Shown piece by piece: positions 20 through 9,442 of a DNA stretch of 64,000 nucleotides. Every line of letters begins with the position of its first letter. Positions within the stretch are counted from its first letter, which is position 1. The stretch is from Ruegeria atlantica (GTDB taxonomy: Bacteria > Pseudomonadota > Alphaproteobacteria > Rhodobacterales > Rhodobacteraceae): NCBI RefSeq assembly GCF_013032005.1, contig NZ_WQBE01000001.1, positions 1,054,001 to 1,118,000 on the forward strand, written 5' to 3'. Made by a program: the position numbers and the translations under genes. The notes beneath the pieces were generated by a model. The model was not told the origin of the DNA and ran no database searches. It saw only the letters and a list, made by a program, of their open reading frames with translations.

Positions 20-1978
20 ATGGCCCTGGATGCAAAATCCGTCTCACTCACCTTTCCCGATGGCAATGCACGTTCTTATGACGCAGGCGTAACGCCCGCG
101 CAGGTGGCTGCCGATATCTCGACCTCGCTGGCGAAAAAGGCCATCTCGGCCACGGTGAATGGCCAGCACTGGGACCTGCAATGGCCCATCGAATCCGATT
201 CCGATATCGCCATTCACACCATGAAGGATGAGGTTCAGGCTAATGAACTGATCCGCCACGACCTGGCGCACATCATGGCCCGCGCGGTGCAGGAGATCTG
301 GCCCGATACCAAGGTCACCATCGGCCCCGTCATCGAAAATGGCTGGTATTATGACTTTGATCGGGCGGAACCTTTCACGCCCGAAGACCTTGGCCTGATC
401 GAAAAAAAGATGAAGGAAATCATCAACAAGCGCGACCCCGTAACCACCGAAGTCTGGGACCGTCAGCGCGCGATTGATTTCTACACGCAGAATAATGAGC
501 CCTATAAGGTCGAGTTGATCGAGGCCATCCCCGGCGACGAGCCGCTGCGCATGTATTGGCATGGCGACTGGCAGGACCTGTGCCGCGGCCCGCATCTGCA
601 GCATACCGGTCAGGTTCCAGGCGATGCGTTCAAGCTGATGTCCATCGCCGGAGCCTATTGGCGCGGTGACAGCGACCGCGCGATGCTGCAGCGTATCTAT
701 GGCGTGGCCTTCACCGGTAAGGAAAAGCTGAAAGCTCACCTGCATATGCTGGAAGAGGCCGCCAAGCGCGACCACCGCAAGCTGGGCCGCGAGATGAACC
801 TGTTCCACATGCAGGAAGAGGCACCCGGCCAAATCTTCTGGCATCCGAACGGCTGGAAAATCTACACCACCCTGCAGGACTATATGCGCCGGATGCAGGA
901 GCGCGATGGATATGTCGAGGTGAACACGCCTCAGGTTGTCGACCGCAAACTGTGGGAGGCCTCGGGCCACTGGGACAAGTATCAGGAAAATATGTTCATT
1001 GTCGAAGTCGACGAGGAACATGCCCGCGAAAAGGCAATCAACGCGCTGAAACCGATGAACTGCCCCTGTCACGTGCAGGTGTTCAATCAGGGCCTGAAAT
1101 CCTATCGTGATCTGCCGTTGCGGATGGCTGAATTCGGGTCTTGTGCCCGTTATGAGCCTTCGGGCGCGCTGCACGGAATCATGCGCGTGCGTGGATTCAC
1201 ACAGGATGATGGTCACATCTTCTGTGCCGAGGATCAGATCGAATCCGAGACCGCCAAGTTCATTGCCTTTCTGTCTAAGGTCTATGCCGATCTGGGCTTC
1301 CATGACTGGACGATCAAACTGTCTACTCGTCCGGAAAAACGGATCGGGTCGGATGAAAGCTGGGATCTGGTCGAAAAGGCGCTGGGCGATGCCTGTAAGG
1401 CCGCCGGATATGAGTATGAGCTGCTAGAAGGCGAAGGCGCGTTTTATGGGCCCAAGCTGGAGTTCACTCTGACCGACGCGATCGGCAGGACATGGCAATG
1501 CGGGACCCTGCAGGTGGACCCCAACCTGCCCGAGCGGCTGGATGCCAGCTTTATCGGTGCCGACGGCGCCAAGCACCGCCCGTTCATGCTGCACAGGGCA
1601 ACGCTGGGTTCGTTCGAACGCTTCATCGGCATTCTTATCGAAGAACACGCAGGCAAGCTGCCTTTCTGGCTGGCCCCGCGTCAGGTCGTCGTCGCCTCGA
1701 TCACGTCAGAAGCCGATGATTATGTGGCCGAAGTGGTTGAGACGCTCAAGGCCGCCGGTGTCCGCGCCGAGGCAGACATCCGCAACGAAAAGATCAACTA
1801 CAAGGTTCGCGAACATTCGGTCGGCAAGGTTCCGGTCATTCTGGCCGTCGGTCATCGCGAAGTTGACGAACGCACCGTCAGCGTTCGCCGGCTGGGCGAA
1901 AAACAAACGCAGGTTCAATCGCTTGAAGCTGTAACAAATGAGCTTTCACAGGCCGCGACACCGCCGGATCTGTTGTAA
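20..1978 (+). CDS. thrS: Threonyl-tRNA synthetase
   Basis: Class II aminoacyl-tRNA synthetase that charges tRNA-Thr in the cytoplasm. The 652 residues match the usual length. In order there is an N-terminal TGS-like domain (about 5-70), the editing/second domain beginning with H80-x3-H84 (RHDLAHIMA) and the RGPH segment near residue 190, the catalytic core with MNCPCH (zinc-binding Cys) near residue 345 and the [18 protein letters not shown] motifs, a YGPKLEF segment, and a C-terminal anticodon-binding domain from about 550. The start has a GAGGAGAG ribosome site 6-12 bases upstream. It stands alone and is followed by a strong hairpin. Confidence 0.98.
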
Positions 1979-2200: not shown

Positions 2201-2503
2201 ATGTCGAACACCGCAAAATCACTGGTTATCGCAACCGCAGTCGCAGCCGCCGTTTCGGGCGCAGCCACAACTGCCACCGCACAAGCCAAAGAGAAATGCT
2301 ATGGCATTTCGCTGGCCGGTCAGAACGACTGCGCCGCGGGCCCCGGCACAACCTGCGCGGGCACCTCGACCGTAGACTATCAGGGCAACGCCTGGACTCT
2401 GGTCGATGCAGGTACCTGCGCCGATATCGAACTGCCGGCCGAGGCTGACGGCACACCGCGCAAAGGCTCGCTGGAAGCTCAGGACCGCGATCTGCCGGCA
2501 TAA
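2201..2503 (+). CDS. bufA: Bufferin-type RiPP precursor (DUF2282), secreted
   Basis: Small 100-residue protein of the DUF2282 family. It has a signal peptide of about 29 residues ending ATAQA, then a mature part with four cysteines (C33, C44, C52, C73) in the pattern [22 protein letters not shown] that is typical of the copper-related bufferins. In that family, known from work on Caulobacter, a DUF692 (MNIO) enzyme converts core cysteines to thiooxazole-type rings before or during export, and the peptide buffers metal in the periplasm. The gene is followed by enzyme, partner and DoxX genes in the expected order, which supports the call. An AGGGATTACCGAG ribosome site lies upstream. Metal specificity is inferred. 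Confidence 0.85.
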
Positions 2504-2523
2504 GTCTGGCCTAAGCTATTCAG

Positions 2524-2547
2524 GGGGCGGGCGACTTCGCCCGCCCC
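2524..2547 (+). terminator. Hairpin between bufA and bufB, possible attenuator
   Basis: Perfect 10-bp GC stem (GGGGCGGGCG / CGCCCGCCCC) with a four-base ACTT loop, 20 bases after the bufA stop, followed by TTACTT. It lies inside the operon, so it is more likely a partial terminator or an RNA-stabilising end that lets the precursor be made in excess over its enzyme than a full stop. Confidence 0.6.
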
Positions 2548-2573
2548 TTACTTCTAGAACAAGGAGCTGCCAA

Positions 2574-3431
2574 ATGTTGGATGACACACTCCGTTCGAAC
2601 CGCCTGCCTCTGGCACCGGGCGTCGGGTACAAGCCGCAGCATTTCGCACAGATCCTTGAACACGCACAGCCAGTTGCCTGGCTGGAAATTCACGCCGAGA
2701 ACTACATGGGTGACGGTGGTCGTCCGCTGGCGCAATTGCGCCATCTCTCGGAAAAGTTTCCGATCTCGGTCCATGGGGTTGGCCTGTCCATCGGCAGCGA
2801 AGGCCCATTGGATGCCGACCATCTGGCACGATTGAAACACCTGGTTGGCTGGCTGAAACCGGCCAGTTTCTCGGAACATCTGGCATGGTCGACCCATGAC
2901 AGCCATTTTCTGAACGACTTACTGCCTCTGCCCTATACTAATGCCTCGCTTGCACGCATTTGCGAGCATATCGATCAGGTACAGGAAACCGTAGGTCGCC
3001 AAATGTTGTTGGAGAATCCGTCCAGCTATCTGGCGTTCGAAGAAAGCACCTGGTCCGAGCCCGATTTTCTGCGCGAAGTTGCACGTCGCACTGGGTGCGG
3101 CCTGCTGCTGGATGTGAACAACGTCTTTGTCTCAGCCACCAATCTGGAATTCTCACCGCAGGGCTATATCGATGCCTACCCTATTGAGAAGGTGGGGGAA
3201 ATCCATCTAGGCGGGCATGATGAGGATGAGGACGACCATGGTCGCCCCCTGCTGATTGACAGCCATGGGCGCGAAGTCGTTGATCCGGTTTGGGCGCTGC
3301 TGGACTACGTTCTAGAGCGATCTGGCCCCAAACCCGTGTTGGTCGAGTGGGACACGGACGTTCCAGAATGGCCCGTGCTGCGGGCCGAAGCAGACCGTGC
3401 GCAAGCGGCCCTGGACCGCGTCCCGGCATGA
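2574..3431 (+). CDS. bufB: DUF692 / MNIO family RiPP-modifying enzyme
   Basis: A 285-residue TIM-barrel protein of the DUF692 family, the multinuclear non-heme iron oxidative enzymes that modify cysteines of RiPP precursors. Putative metal ligands are visible in order: H67 (SVHGVG), E101/H102 (FSEHLAWS), E147 (LLENPSS), D180-N182-N183 (LLLDVNN), H211 and H215 (EIHLGGH) and E258 (VEWD). I start at 2574 because AAGGAGCTGCCAA precedes it; the reading frame is open further upstream but would run through the bufA coding end. It lies between bufA and bufC and should act in the cytoplasm on the bufA product. Confidence in the family is high; the exact modification is inferred. Confidence 0.92.
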
Positions 3432-4189
3432 GCGTTTCGCAAGAAAGTTTTCACGCCGCGCTGATGAACCCGTCAGCCGCCATCCCTAAAGGACTGCTGG
3501 ACGCGGTCGCACAACCTGCCGGGCGGCGGTTCAGTGTGTATCGCAACAACGTGGCGGTGTCGCTGACCGAAGCGATGCATCAGGCATTTCCGGTCATCAC
3601 CAAATTGCTGGGGGCTCAGAACATGGATGGGCTGTCGGGTATTTTCCTGCGCAAACATCCCCCCTCATCGCCGTTGATGATGTTTTATGGTGAAGAATTC
3701 CCCGAATTTCTTGCCGGAATGGAGCAGCTCTCGCATATTGGATACCTGCCTGACGTGGCGCAATTGGAGCTTGCCTTGCGCCGTTCCTACCACGCCGCTG
3801 ACAGCGAACCAGCCCCAGCGGACGCACTGGCTGTTCCGCCCGAAGACATCATGCGGGCGCGGCTGGGATTTGCCCCGTCGATGCGGGTTCTGCGCTCGGA
3901 CTGGCCGATTTATTCGATCTGGCGTTTCAACACCGAAGACAACGCCCCCAAACCCGATCTCGCCGCCCAAGACGTTCTGATCACCCGGGCCGAGTATGAC
4001 CCGGTTCCACATCTGCTGCCCGAAGGCGGCGCGCACTGGATTGCGGGCCTTCAGGCCGGGCAAACCATTGGTGGCGCGTTTGAAGATACTGCAAACCATT
4101 TCCCCGAATTTGACCTTGGGGCCACTCTGGCGCTGCTTTTACAAGGCGGCGCAATAACCTCTGTGACTATCGAAAGGCTGGCAACATGA
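3428..4189 (+). CDS. bufC: DUF2063 bufferin partner protein
   Basis: A 253-residue protein whose first about 90 residues match the DUF2063 / HvfC-BufC N-terminal domain ([10 protein letters not shown].. and [15 protein letters not shown]). In bufferin clusters this protein is thought to recognise the precursor and present it to the MNIO enzyme; the C-terminal half is less conserved. Its ATG overlaps the bufB stop (ATGA), so the two are probably translationally coupled. No signal peptide or membrane segment is seen, in keeping with a cytoplasmic partner. Confidence 0.88.
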
Positions 4190-4713
4190 CTGCCCTGATC
4201 TCATTGCACAACAACACCCTGGGACGGTTAGAGATGACCTCTGGCTGGTTGACACCGACCTTGGCCAGGCTGGTTTTTGCGGCAACATTGCTGGTGTATT
4301 ATTGGAATTCGGCGACCACCAAACTGGGCAGCGGATTCTTTGGGTTCCTGTTCCCGTCCGACGGTGCCTATGTGCAGATTTTCCCCAAAGCCATGGAAGC
4401 TGTCAGCTATGACAGCTCGCAATTGGGGATCATGCATTGGGCCATTGCTGTTGCGGGGACCTGGGCTGAGTTTCTTCTACCTACGCTGATCGTGATCGGC
4501 CTTCTGTCGCGGTTCGCGGCATTGGGTATGCTGGCATTTGTCTGGGTTCAGACGATCGTAGATGTCACGGGCCACGGTACGGAATTGGGCAGCTACTTCA
4601 CCAACGCCGTAAGCCTGCTGGATGATCGGACACTCTGGTCCTTCCTGCTGGCAGTGATCGTGATCAACGGCGCAGGGCCGCTGTCCGTTGATCGCATCCT
4701 GCACATCAAGTGA
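4186..4713 (+). CDS. DoxX family membrane protein of the bufferin operon
   Basis: A 175-residue inner-membrane protein with about four hydrophobic segments (roughly 24-44, 80-105, 108-130 and 145-165), of the DoxX family. It overlaps bufC by four bases and closes the operon. DoxX-like genes are frequent fourth members of bufferin clusters, where their role (redox, export or membrane anchoring) is not settled. An internal start at M17 (MTSGWLT) would also give a plausible DoxX protein, but the four-base overlap favours the longer form. Confidence 0.82.
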   Translation: MTALISLHNNTLGRLEMTSGWLTPTLARLVFAATLLVYYWNSATTKLGSGFFGFLFPSDGAYVQIFPKAMEAVSYDSSQLGIMHWAIAVAGTWAEFLLPTLIVIGLLSRFAALGMLAFVWVQTIVDVTGHGTELGSYFTNAVSLLDDRTLWSFLLAVIVINGAGPLSVDRILHIK

Positions 4714-4714
4714 T

Positions 4715-5083
4715 CTAGAAATGCGCCTTGGGCTCGTCCGGTTTACCCGCGGCCAGTCCAAGGAGGCCCGCAACACCCGCAAATGCCACCGGGAACATAG
4801 TGAACACGTTAAAGCCAAAGGCGTAATACATCCCGGCCGCTGAGATCAGCAACAAGACCCCTCCGATCAGGGCCCGTGCATGGGCCATTGCACCGCCAGC
4901 AATCGCTAATAGCGGCGCAATGATCGACGCGAACTGTATGAGTTGCGCGTTGTCCACCTGCTCGGCCAGCCCGTCGATCTCACCAAACCGATCAATCAGT
5001 TCGACATAGCCATAGCCGAAAAAGCCAACAATCATCCCGATCAAACCGGCGATGACACCCAAAATCATAGCAGCGTTACGCAT
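4715..5083 (-). CDS. Small four-segment membrane protein, unknown
   Basis: A 122-residue hydrophobic protein with a likely membrane helix at 5-25 and three more between about 50 and 112, and a short charged tail (GKPDEPKAHF). I do not recognise the family beyond a general likeness to small DUF4064-type membrane proteins. A GAGGA ribosome site sits seven bases before the ATG. It ends two bases from the end of the DoxX gene, so the two converge with no room for a separate terminator. Confidence 0.6.
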   Translation of the reverse strand: MRNAAMILGVIAGLIGMIVGFFGYGYVELIDRFGEIDGLAEQVDNAQLIQFASIIAPLLAIAGGAMAHARALIGGVLLLISAAGMYYAFGFNVFTMFPVAFAGVAGLLGLAAGKPDEPKAHF

Positions 5084-5124: not shown

Positions 5125-5442
5125 TCACGCAACGCCAAGCCCTGCCTTCGTTTCCGCCGTCCATCCCAGATACAGGGTACCGTCTTGCTCGATCAGGGGG
5201 CGCTTCATCAGGGTCGGGTGATCTGCCAGCAGTTCCAGCGGAGGCCGCGCGCGTTGTGCATCGTCTAATCCACGCCAGGTTGTCGAACGGGTATTGAGCA
5301 AAGCCTCGCCGAAGCGATCCAGCGCCTGCGTCAGCATCGCTTTGGGTACGCCATCGGTCCGAACGTCGACAAACTCAGTATCTGGAAGTGATTTCAAAGC
5401 CTTGCGGCACGTGTCACAGTTCTTCAGACCATAAAGGCGCAT
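5125..5442 (-). CDS. ArsC/Spx-like thioredoxin-fold protein
   Basis: A 105-residue protein of the ArsC family, closest in style to YffB-type proteins: N-terminal MRLYGLKNCDTCRKA with a C-x2-C pair, and a KRPL segment followed by a GW motif (LGWTAE) near the C terminus. True arsenate reductases have a single catalytic Cys plus arginines; the CxxC form and size point to an uncharacterised reductase-like member. I start at 5442, where AGGAGACACC precedes the ATG, rather than nine codons upstream. It may be co-transcribed with the downstream membrane gene, 41 bases away. Confidence 0.82.
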   Translation of the reverse strand: MRLYGLKNCDTCRKALKSLPDTEFVDVRTDGVPKAMLTQALDRFGEALLNTRSTTWRGLDDAQRARPPLELLADHPTLMKRPLIEQDGTLYLGWTAETKAGLGVA

Positions 5443-5560
5443 TTCGGGTGTCTCCTGTATCTGGTTCAATTTTCAGCAAATTTGCCTGCACGTTTCAGAA
5501 ATTCTTGATTTTTTACTTCACCATGCAATGTTGAAAAAGACGAAACTCACAATTCGCGCT

Positions 5561-7107: not shown

Positions 7108-7536
7108 ATGGGGCTGAGATATCTTCACACCATGATCCGCGTGAAGGATCTGGAAAAGTCGATGGCGTTTTTTGAGTTGCTGGGCCTGAAGGAAACCCGC
7201 CGCTATGACAGCGAGGCGGGGCGGTTTTCGCTGATCTTCATGGCGCCCCCGGGGCAAGAGGATCGCCCAATTGAGCTGACCCACAATTGGGATGGTGACG
7301 ATGCGCTGCCCAGCGACAGTCGGCATTTCGGGCATTTGGCCTATGGCGTCGACAATATTTACGAGGTCTGCCAGCACTTGCAGGACAATGGTGTGGTGAT
7401 CAACCGCCCGCCCCGCGACGGCCGTATGGCGTTTGTACGGTCGCCCGACAATATCTCGGTCGAGTTGCTACAGAACGGTGACGCGCTGGAAGCCGCCGAA
7501 CCCTGGGTCAGCATGGAAAGCACCGGACACTGGTGA
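7108..7536 (+). CDS. gloA: Lactoylglutathione lyase (glyoxalase I)
   Basis: A 142-residue VOC-fold enzyme that converts the methylglyoxal-glutathione hemithioacetal to S-lactoylglutathione. Metal ligands H7, E56, H76 and E119 can be placed in the expected spots (YLHTMIRV, IELTHN, FGHLAYGV, SVELLQ). The start follows GAAAGGAAGCCACA. The downstream DUF1194 gene starts in its stop codon region (GTGA), so the three genes to 8944 likely form one transcript. Confidence 0.94.
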   Translation: MGLRYLHTMIRVKDLEKSMAFFELLGLKETRRYDSEAGRFSLIFMAPPGQEDRPIELTHNWDGDDALPSDSRHFGHLAYGVDNIYEVCQHLQDNGVVINRPPRDGRMAFVRSPDNISVELLQNGDALEAAEPWVSMESTGHW

Positions 7537-8237
7537 TCCGATGGCTGACAGCACTGGGACTGGCCGGACTGGCCAGCCCGCTTCGGGCCGAAACCTGTCG
7601 CCTGGCCTTGGCGTTGGCTATGGATATCTCAAGCTCGGTGGATGCAACCGAGGATACCCTGCAGCGGCAGGGCCTGGCCGCTGCCCTGATCGCCCCTGAG
7701 GTGACCGAGGCGTTCTTTTCCTCTCCTTTGCCCGTGGCATTGGCTGTGTATGAGTGGGGCAGCCGCTCGACCCAGCGCATGATCCTGAACTGGACGATGA
7801 TCAACACGCAAGCTGATTTGCTAACGGCGGCAGAGACCATACAGCGTTCAGTCCGATCTGACGGTGACTCGGCCACTGCCATGGGGCAAGCTTTGGCTTT
7901 TGGTGCGACCCTGATGCAGCAAGCACCACCATGTTTGTTTCAGACCATCGACCTGTCTGGGGACGGCGCAAATAACGATGGTTTCCAACCTGCATCCGCT
8001 TATCGCCACTTTCCGTTCGAGGGCATTGTGGTCAACGGGCTGGTTATCAATGCTGCCGATTTCGAGGGCGAAGTTCATCTGATTCCCTACTTCGAAAACA
8101 ATGTTCTGTACGGGCCTGGCGCATTTCTAGAAGTCGCACAGGGGTTCGAGGATTTCGAACGCGCCATGCGGCGGAAGCTGGAACGTGAACTGACAAGCTT
8201 GCAAATCGGCGTGCTGCAGGACTTCGCGCCCAGATGA
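7533..8237 (+). CDS. Secreted DUF1194 von Willebrand-like protein, copy 1
   Basis: A 234-residue protein with a signal peptide (about 1-19, ending LRAE) and a DUF1194 / VWA-type domain. A MIDAS-like D31-x-S33-x-S35 motif follows the first strand (AMDISSSVD), and DLSGDGANN near residue 145 is the second conserved block. VWA domains bind metal and partner proteins; no function is known for DUF1194. It starts with GTG overlapping the gloA stop. The next gene is a paralogue, and the two are clearly related across their whole length. Confidence 0.85.
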   Translation: MIRWLTALGLAGLASPLRAETCRLALALAMDISSSVDATEDTLQRQGLAAALIAPEVTEAFFSSPLPVALAVYEWGSRSTQRMILNWTMINTQADLLTAAETIQRSVRSDGDSATAMGQALAFGATLMQQAPPCLFQTIDLSGDGANNDGFQPASAYRHFPFEGIVVNGLVINAADFEGEVHLIPYFENNVLYGPGAFLEVAQGFEDFERAMRRKLERELTSLQIGVLQDFAPR

Positions 8238-8944
8238 CGCGACTATTGGCATTTGTCATTAGTTTGTTCGCTGGTTCGGCCACGGCAGAGTGCCGACAAG
8301 CTCTGGCGCTGGGGCTGGATGTTTCTGGTTCGGTGGACAGTCACGAATACCGGCTGCAACTTGACGGTGTGGCAGCTGCTTTGCAGCGTCCTGAAGTGGT
8401 CCAGCTATTGCTGTCAAACCCTGCTGCCCCTGTGCGGCTGGCGATTTTCGAGTGGAGCGAGCCGGGCCATCAACGTCTGTTGCAAGACTGGATCGCCATA
8501 CGTTCTGTTAACGATCTTGAACAGATCGCCTTTCTACTGAACCGAACCAAGCGCAGTGCCGCCCCGCAAGGTACGGCTGTTGGCTCAGCGATGCTGTTCG
8601 GGGCCGACCTGCTGTCCGACCAAACAAGTTGCTGGAAACGAACACTCGATCTGTCCGGCGACGGCAAACACAATCTGGGCACTCACCCGCGCGAAGCCAA
8701 AAGCACGCTTGAAGCTTCGGGCATCACCATCAACGGCCTGGTCATCGGCGCGGATGATCCCAGCCACGGCGACAAACGCTATGTGCAGGTTGGAGAGCTG
8801 TCTGCCTATTACACCGCCTGGGTCATCCTGGGGCCAGATGCCTTTGTCGAGGTTGCCCTGGGGTTTGACGCTTATGAGGACGCCATGACCCGAAAGCTGA
8901 TCCGAGAGCTTGAAGGGCTGATCCTGTCCGATGCGCGCCCCTGA
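8234..8944 (+). CDS. Secreted DUF1194 von Willebrand-like protein, copy 2
   Basis: A 236-residue paralogue of the preceding gene: signal peptide about 1-18 (SATAE), MIDAS-like D29-x-S31-x-S33 (LDVSGSVD), the block DLSGDGKHN, GITINGLVIGADD, and the ending GFDAYEDAMTRKL that mirrors GFEDFERAMRRKL in copy 1. The ATG overlaps the previous stop by four bases. The pair arose by tandem duplication and has diverged considerably. Periplasmic or surface location is inferred from the signal peptide. Confidence 0.85.
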   Translation: MTRLLAFVISLFAGSATAECRQALALGLDVSGSVDSHEYRLQLDGVAAALQRPEVVQLLLSNPAAPVRLAIFEWSEPGHQRLLQDWIAIRSVNDLEQIAFLLNRTKRSAAPQGTAVGSAMLFGADLLSDQTSCWKRTLDLSGDGKHNLGTHPREAKSTLEASGITINGLVIGADDPSHGDKRYVQVGELSAYYTAWVILGPDAFVEVALGFDAYEDAMTRKLIRELEGLILSDARP

Positions 8945-9442
8945 TCAGTAGATATATCGGATCTGGTCCGTCCAATACCGTTCCACCCGGCGCAGAGAGG
9001 TTGTGATGTCGTCGATCCCCGCCAACCCAAGCACACCACGGGTTTGCAGCCCCTCGGCATGGCGCGAGAACAGCTCGGTCACGATATCCCGAATTTCCCG
9101 CCCGCGCGGCGTCAGCCGAACCCGAACCGAGCGCCTGTCAATCTCACACCTTTGGTGGTGCATATAGCCCATTTCGACCAACTTCTTGAGGTTGTAGCTG
9201 ACGTTGCTGCCCTGATAATAGCCACGGCTTTTCAACTCACCCGCCGTCACCTCATGATCGCCGATATTGAACAGAAGCAGGGCCTGAACGGCGTTGATTT
9301 CCAACACGCCCACCCGCTCGAACTCATCCTTGATAACGTCCAGCAGCAGACGGTGCAGCCGCTCGACCAAAGCGAGCGCTTCAAGATAGCTGGTCATGAA
9401 ACCCTTGGTTTCCGGCGCGGAGACCTGCATTTCCATACTCAT
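8945..9442 (-). CDS. MarR-type winged-helix regulator (LdtR-like)
   Basis: A 165-residue winged-helix regulator. The recognition region YYQGSNVSYNLKKLVEMGY and the wing RCEIDRRSVRVRLT resemble the LdtR group of MarR proteins known from Rhizobiales, which control LD-transpeptidase and stress genes; that target is not shown here. An ideal GGAGG site lies five bases before the ATG. It meets the DUF1194 gene end to end (stops adjacent), so no terminator separates them. Confidence 0.8.
   Translation of the reverse strand: MSMEMQVSAPETKGFMTSYLEALALVERLHRLLLDVIKDEFERVGVLEINAVQALLLFNIGDHEVTAGELKSRGYYQGSNVSYNLKKLVEMGYMHHQRCEIDRRSVRVRLTPRGREIRDIVTELFSRHAEGLQTRGVLGLAGIDDITTSLRRVERYWTDQIRYIY

Follow-up and report, generated by a model that had tools for sequence, protein, structure and literature searches.

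The four genes at positions 2201-4713 of the window (the whole stretch of 64,000 nucleotides of Ruegeria atlantica DNA analyzed here) raise two questions, namely which system they encode and how it is switched on. All four are on the forward strand. The first gene, bufA (2201-2503), encodes a DUF2282 (Buf1) precursor peptide of 100 residues (PF10048, E value 6.3e-25; 87.4 bits against a cut-off of 22.4). It is followed by bufB (2574-3431, 285 residues), for an MNIO (DUF692) bufferin maturase (PF05114, MbnB_TglH_ChrH, 2.6e-105), bufC (3428-4189, 253 residues), for a DUF2063 partner protein (PF09836, 1.7e-23), and doxX (4186-4713), for a helical-bundle, membrane-type protein that is just above the Pfam cut-off (PF07681, 2.8e-05; 25.1 bits against 23.6) and belongs to a 175-residue allele. 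ATGA overlaps connect bufB with bufC and bufC with doxX. The start of bufC is taken as the ATG at 3428, overlapping the stop codon of bufB, and the start given by the program that listed the open reading frames is further upstream. The gene for threonyl-tRNA synthetase, thrS (20-1978, forward strand, identified by its Pfam domains), is the fixed 5′ neighbor and is outside the buf system.

A sequence-only reading of this DNA had proposed a bufferin-type operon bufA-bufB-bufC-doxX, and the four genes are indeed present on one strand at 2201-4713. BufB scores above the cut-off of the NCBIfam equivalog model for the bufferin maturase MNIO_BufB (NF050167; 380.9 against 310 bits) and below that for HvfB (231.7 against 360). 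BufC is below the cut-off for HvfC (49.7 against 142), and no NCBIfam model matches BufA or DoxX. The bufferin assignment agrees with the maturase model and with the published core of bufferin clusters, which is reported to comprise precursor, MNIO, DUF2063 and DoxX genes (PMC12452194). The segment is a Buf1-type bufferin (gigPABT) operon, a known kind.

An operon of this kind is widespread and was to be expected, and it is already described as gigPABT (PMC10304878), GIG (PMC5413113) and CC3254-CC3257 (PMC3511200). The Caulobacter operon CC3254-CC3257 has the DUF2282, DUF692, DUF2063 and DoxX genes in the identical order (PMC3511200). The same gene set is found in gigPABT of Cupriavidus metallidurans, reported to be an operon by RT-PCR (PMC10304878), and in GIG of Legionella, reported to be co-transcribed (PMC5413113). 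There is also a likeness to HvfABC and the captophorins (oxazolin, fontiphorin, gonophorin), in which an MNIO enzyme and a DUF2063 protein are reported to make 5-thiooxazoles on precursor cysteines (PMC13097082). The HvfABC precursor has EGKCG repeats, however, whereas the precursor in the window is a DUF2282 peptide with four cysteines.

The operon is core in the genus Ruegeria. The MNIO enzyme is found in 53 of 54 genus genomes, the host genome included; in the 54th (G029) the enzyme is covered by a run of N, around which thrS, the first part of bufA, the last part of bufC, doxX and the flanking genes are all present. The order thrS-bufA-bufB-bufC-doxX-orf122 is maintained in each of the other 52 genus loci whose genes can be read, with the first five genes on the same strand. 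Gene order in relatives had been proposed as a check on the operon, and its retention, together with that of the strand, argues that the arrangement is not due to chance. The host genome contains a single MNIO match and a single DUF2282 match in a profile search. Across the family Rhodobacteraceae, DUF2282 is found in 211 of 295 genomes, and 62 of 90 loci are linked to thrS (in L138 the link rests solely on a weak hit of 26%). Of the 109 loci from genus and family in which bufB, bufC and doxX are all complete, 67 have both ATGA overlaps, for start codons picked by script. The order bufA-bufB-bufC-doxX is also found in all of 80 named loci, which were chosen by DoxX similarity, and 73 of these have thrS in front.

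The N-terminal segment of BufA, up to about residue 29, has the appearance of a Sec-type signal peptide (by eye only). The four cysteines, Cys33, Cys44, Cys52 and Cys73, are conserved in all 143 aligned BufA sequences. In Buf1 precursors, the central cysteines are reported to be modified and the outer ones disulfide-bonded (PMC12452194), and by this rule Cys44 and Cys52 are the expected targets. Beyond the Pfam domain, residues 87-100 (2459-2500) form a conserved C-terminal tail, GSLExxxRDLPA, whose RD[LIVM][PA] motif is found in 53 of 53 genus proteins and 73 of 90 family proteins. This tail could serve in recognition or anchoring.

BufB can be aligned to a solved MNIO structure (PDB entry 3bww, 1.9e-43). 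The enzyme had been credited with all putative metal ligands, and two sets of residues bear on this. His67, His102, Glu147, His211, His215 and Glu258, which are candidate metal ligands, are conserved at 0.99-1.00 among 140 aligned BufB sequences. For a second set the comparison is with residues of HvfB, Asn175, Asp242 and His244, whose replacement is reported to have abolished activity (PMC13419390); their counterparts in BufB, Asn182 or Asn183, Asp229 and His231, are retained, with a conservation of 0.99 in the same alignment. BufC has no match among PDB sequences at 0.001. Its length and domain match those of the PME-type 1 partner proteins, which are reported to have a length peak at 250-260 residues (PMC12452194).

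By analogy with the characterized systems, BufA would be made with a Sec signal peptide, and a complex of BufB and BufC would oxidize Cys44 and Cys52 to thiooxazoles in the cytoplasm. Cys33 and Cys73 would form a disulfide, and the modified peptide would be exported and would sequester excess copper in the periplasm of the Ruegeria strain. Buf1 bufferins are reported as copper chelators that improve growth under copper stress (PMC12452194), and the NCBIfam model names the enzyme for bufferin. Both points weigh against the possibility that the cluster, while a genuine Buf1 cluster, has its main task in this genus in another stress (gold, chromium/cadmium or oxidants), with copper being secondary. 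This possibility is raised by the naming of the gig genes for gold induction (PMC10304878, PMC5413113), by the reported response of CC3254-CC3257 to chromium and cadmium via sigma-F (PMC3511200), by the suggestion that DoxX points to other stresses (PMC12452194), and by the seemingly different regulator in Ruegeria (see below). The gig operon of C. metallidurans is reported to be induced by copper as well as gold and to make a small contribution to copper resistance (PMC10304878), and GIG of Legionella is linked to a gold/copper response (PMC5413113). As the role of Gig in copper resistance is only slight in C. metallidurans, the phenotype in Ruegeria may be weak or concern another stress. Nonetheless, we regard a main task other than copper as unlikely, and copper sequestration is the preferred function of the peptide.

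DoxX had been singled out as the least explored member of the operon, which is a fair description. The AlphaFold2 model (mean pLDDT 88.7) is a bundle of long helices. A search against PDB sequences finds only one meaningless match (E value 0.74), and a Foldseek search with the model finds none at an E value of 0.001 or better. In a second structural comparison, all Z scores are below 8 (7.9 for NACHO/TMEM35A, about 5 for VKOR), which is no evidence of kinship for a helical bundle. The residues conserved in at least 97% of 111 aligned sequences include Arg28, Lys46, Gln64, Glu95, Asp126, His130, Asp146, Arg148 and Trp151.

VKOR chains are among the structural matches, and one relative (L118) resembles MauE weakly (E value 0.29). 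This could suggest that DoxX introduces the BufA disulfide as a thiol oxidoreductase of the VKOR/MauE/DsbB kind. A Z score of 5 is, however, within the range of unrelated helical bundles. Moreover, DoxX in the window has no cysteine, catalytic or other, among its 175 residues, and cysteine is found in just 11 of 110 relatives. Both facts speak against thiol chemistry. We consider an oxidoreductase of this kind extremely improbable. DoxX would instead act as an accessory protein in the membrane, with a chemistry that needs no cysteine.

The doxX gene exists in two main types in the genus. Among the 53 genus loci, the protein has 175 residues in 21, 172 residues in 31 and 187 residues in one. 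For pairs of DoxX proteins of the same main type the median identity is 85% in one type and 84% in the other, and for mixed pairs it is 65%. The other two proteins show no comparable split: sorted by doxX type, BufB gives 89% and 90% for pairs of one type and 89% for mixed pairs, and BufC gives 79% and 75% for pairs of one type and 76% for mixed pairs. In quick trees, with the 187-residue protein grouped with the 172-residue type, at least seven changes of doxX type are needed on the BufB+BufC tree, compared to two on the DoxX tree. This difference fits repeated replacement of doxX alone.

The gap between thrS and bufA contains a putative operator at 2093-2121 (29 bp, forward strand), composed of two tandem 14-bp palindromes of the form TCACR-N4-YGTGA. 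The two copies are located at 2093-2106 and 2108-2121, with a spacing of 15 bp, and the same doubling is seen in the family logo. When the gap is aligned across the genus (53 loci, that of the window among them), the block from TGAC to AAC has 36 columns, of which 23 are invariant. Much of the gap outside this block is more variable, but the stretch immediately 5′ of bufA is also well conserved.

The 22-mer core of the site is found once in the host genome with up to three mismatches, and its reversed control has no match there. The family logo also gives a 31-mer pattern, TNACRNNNNYGTGANNCACRNNNNYGTGANT, which is matched perfectly once, and only once, in every one of the 54 genus genomes. Another 14 matches have one or two mismatches, and one of these overlaps a perfect site in reverse orientation (by eye). 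These extra matches look like chance, being about as frequent as those of the reversed control, which occur in 16 genus genomes (counted by eye). A wider regulon was considered and rejected, with one core copy in the host genome and surplus genus matches at the level of the reversed control.

Many other Rhodobacteraceae genera also have the site 5′ of bufA. A strict form ending in TGG is found, with up to one mismatch, in 76 of the 295 family genomes (compared to 211 with DUF2282), once in each, and the reversed control has one match overall. The DUF2282 gene was located in 53 of these 76 genomes, and in 52 of the 53 the strict-form site is positioned 186-231 nt upstream of it on the same strand. 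In G115 (locus L163) it is found between bufA and bufB; a degenerate-looking second copy is visible before bufA in this locus (by eye). A search through the class finds the strict form in two of 289 genomes, both of the same family as the host, and in none of the 285 genomes of other families, taken whether or not they carry a buf operon; this search covered the strict form only, as that pattern does not match the form of the site in the genus. The loose 22-mer is found in 68 of 295 family genomes and its reversed control in about 20 (by eye), so that many of its matches with three mismatches are due to chance.

With a weight matrix (threshold 6; maximum of 4.0 among 1800 shuffled segments), the site is found upstream of bufA in 57 of the 62 thrS-linked family loci and six of the 28 others. 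The total of 63 of 90 is inflated, as 20 of these loci were fetched for carrying the motif. The same matrix finds the site in 75 of the 80 named loci, and in 44 of the 49 that are outside the set from which it was built. A clear site is thus lacking in five of 62 thrS-linked loci and five of 80 named loci. Among the papers retrieved on buf/gig genes, or on how these are regulated in Rhodobacter, Roseobacter and Caulobacter, none has a title or abstract opening that describes this site.

The position of the site relative to the candidate promoter elements suggests its role. A putative −10 box, TACCTT, is located at 2146-2151, and a weak putative −35 box, TTCAAC, at 2123-2128, 17 bp before it (both on the forward strand). 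Among the 53 genus loci (window included), 50 have TTCAAC, TTCACC or TTTAAC as the −35 hexamer, and all 53 have TANNNT at one fixed distance from the site. No single −35 hexamer is shared across the family, and 37 of 57 family sites are followed by TANNNT at an offset of 18-21, where shuffled sequences give a mean of 2.5 and a maximum of 8. From this anatomy, transcription would most likely start near 2158, about 40 nt 5′ of bufA.

The GTG/CAC and ACR/YGT elements of the site are complementary, and the sequence in the window tolerates G-U pairs. The 29 bp might therefore act as RNA, forming a hairpin within an extended 5′ leader (an attenuator or riboswitch-like element), and not as a protein operator. 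Among 14 pairs tested over 57 family sites, however, only the pair at index 7/23 is clearly above shuffles. Seven other variable pairs are not, and the remaining six hardly vary and are uninformative either way. In addition, the conserved TANNNT 19-20 nt downstream of the site suggests that the site is located upstream of transcription. The hairpin, which we consider very unlikely, was set aside.

The site ends just 5′ of a poor −35 box, the usual position for an activator, and from this arrangement we infer that a putative activator with few targets binds at 2093-2121 and switches on transcription from the weak promoter. Repression is frequent in stress operons, and a repressor could also bind a site that abuts the −35 box. 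The site ends 1 nt before this box, however, and does not cover the −35/−10 core or the expected start, and a poor −35 (TTCAAC) is usual for activated promoters. A repressor is therefore an unlikely occupant of the site, and an activator is preferred. As a whole, we judge it likely that this is a Buf1-type bufferin operon with a cysteine-modified, copper-sequestering peptide, a DoxX accessory protein and a weak promoter driven by an activator.

The control of this operon would differ from that in Caulobacter, where an ECF sigma-F and a negative regulator encoded beside the operon are reported to control CC3254-CC3257 (PMC3511200). The host genome of Ruegeria has no match to NrsF (PF06532), which is detected in the Caulobacter positive control, and the promoter-proximal site is different. 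Similarly, gigPABT is reported to be divergent from the ECF sigma gene rpoQ (PMC10304878), whereas thrS is upstream in the window and no adjacent sigma gene is seen. With the sigma and NrsF proteins beside bufA in L118 as queries, a sigma relative is found in at least 14 of the 90 family loci, a minimum since the flanks are short (about 1.5 kb) for 30 loci. Sixty-three loci have the site, none has both and 13 have neither. As none of the 14 sigma loci carries the site, the family seems to regulate buf in two or more ways, with the window in the second group. The tail of BufA is lacking in 10 of the 14 sigma-linked proteins. As a marker of the site loci it is only partly true, being present in 57 of 63 site loci, four of 14 sigma loci and 12 of 13 loci with neither.

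The 10 kb upstream of the operon, inspected by eye, contain no evident regulator except one open reading frame, which resembles a polyhydroxyalkanoate regulator. About 4 kb downstream of the operon there is a MarR-type gene (8945-9442), with nothing linking it to the operon. These two were the only candidates seen for a regulator gene nearby, and neither was retained.

In much of the Rhodobacteraceae, the bufferin operon may have left ECF sigma-F/NrsF for a dedicated, undescribed activator that binds the tandem palindromes next to a weak promoter, and of which the operon would be practically the sole target. In addition, doxX may have been exchanged between its two allele types while the rest of the operon stayed unchanged, which would mark it as a part under selection of its own. 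We regard this proposal as evenly poised between right and wrong. The conserved putative operator and the doxX dimorphism are the additions to the sequence-only reading. The putative operator offers a precise, short DNA bait for the sensor behind a copper-buffering peptide in marine bacteria like Ruegeria, and it lets bufferin promoters be recognized in genomes that do not have the sigma-F system. A DoxX protein that is free of cysteine and has two alleles narrows the possible roles of the unexplained fourth gene.

Several features of the neighborhood are also of note. On the 3′ side of thrS, a strong inverted repeat, AATTCGGCCCC...GGGGCCGAATT, is visible by eye at 2001-2028; it is probably the thrS terminator, separating transcription of thrS from that of bufA. 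The identity of thrS to that in the window is 72-98% across the genus loci and seemingly bimodal (32 loci at 72-90% and 20 at 93-98%), for many loci from the C-terminal part only, and this could reflect allele replacement of thrS. Convergent with the operon on the reverse strand are the 122-residue membrane-type open reading frame (4715-5083), which has no Pfam match and is present in all 52 other genus loci, and a gene for an ArsC/Spx-like protein (5125-5469), found in 23 of these 52 loci (longer stretches). Both are recurrent in many family loci. Further downstream, two DUF1194 genes (7533-8237 and 8234-8944) are arranged in tandem with an ATGA overlap.
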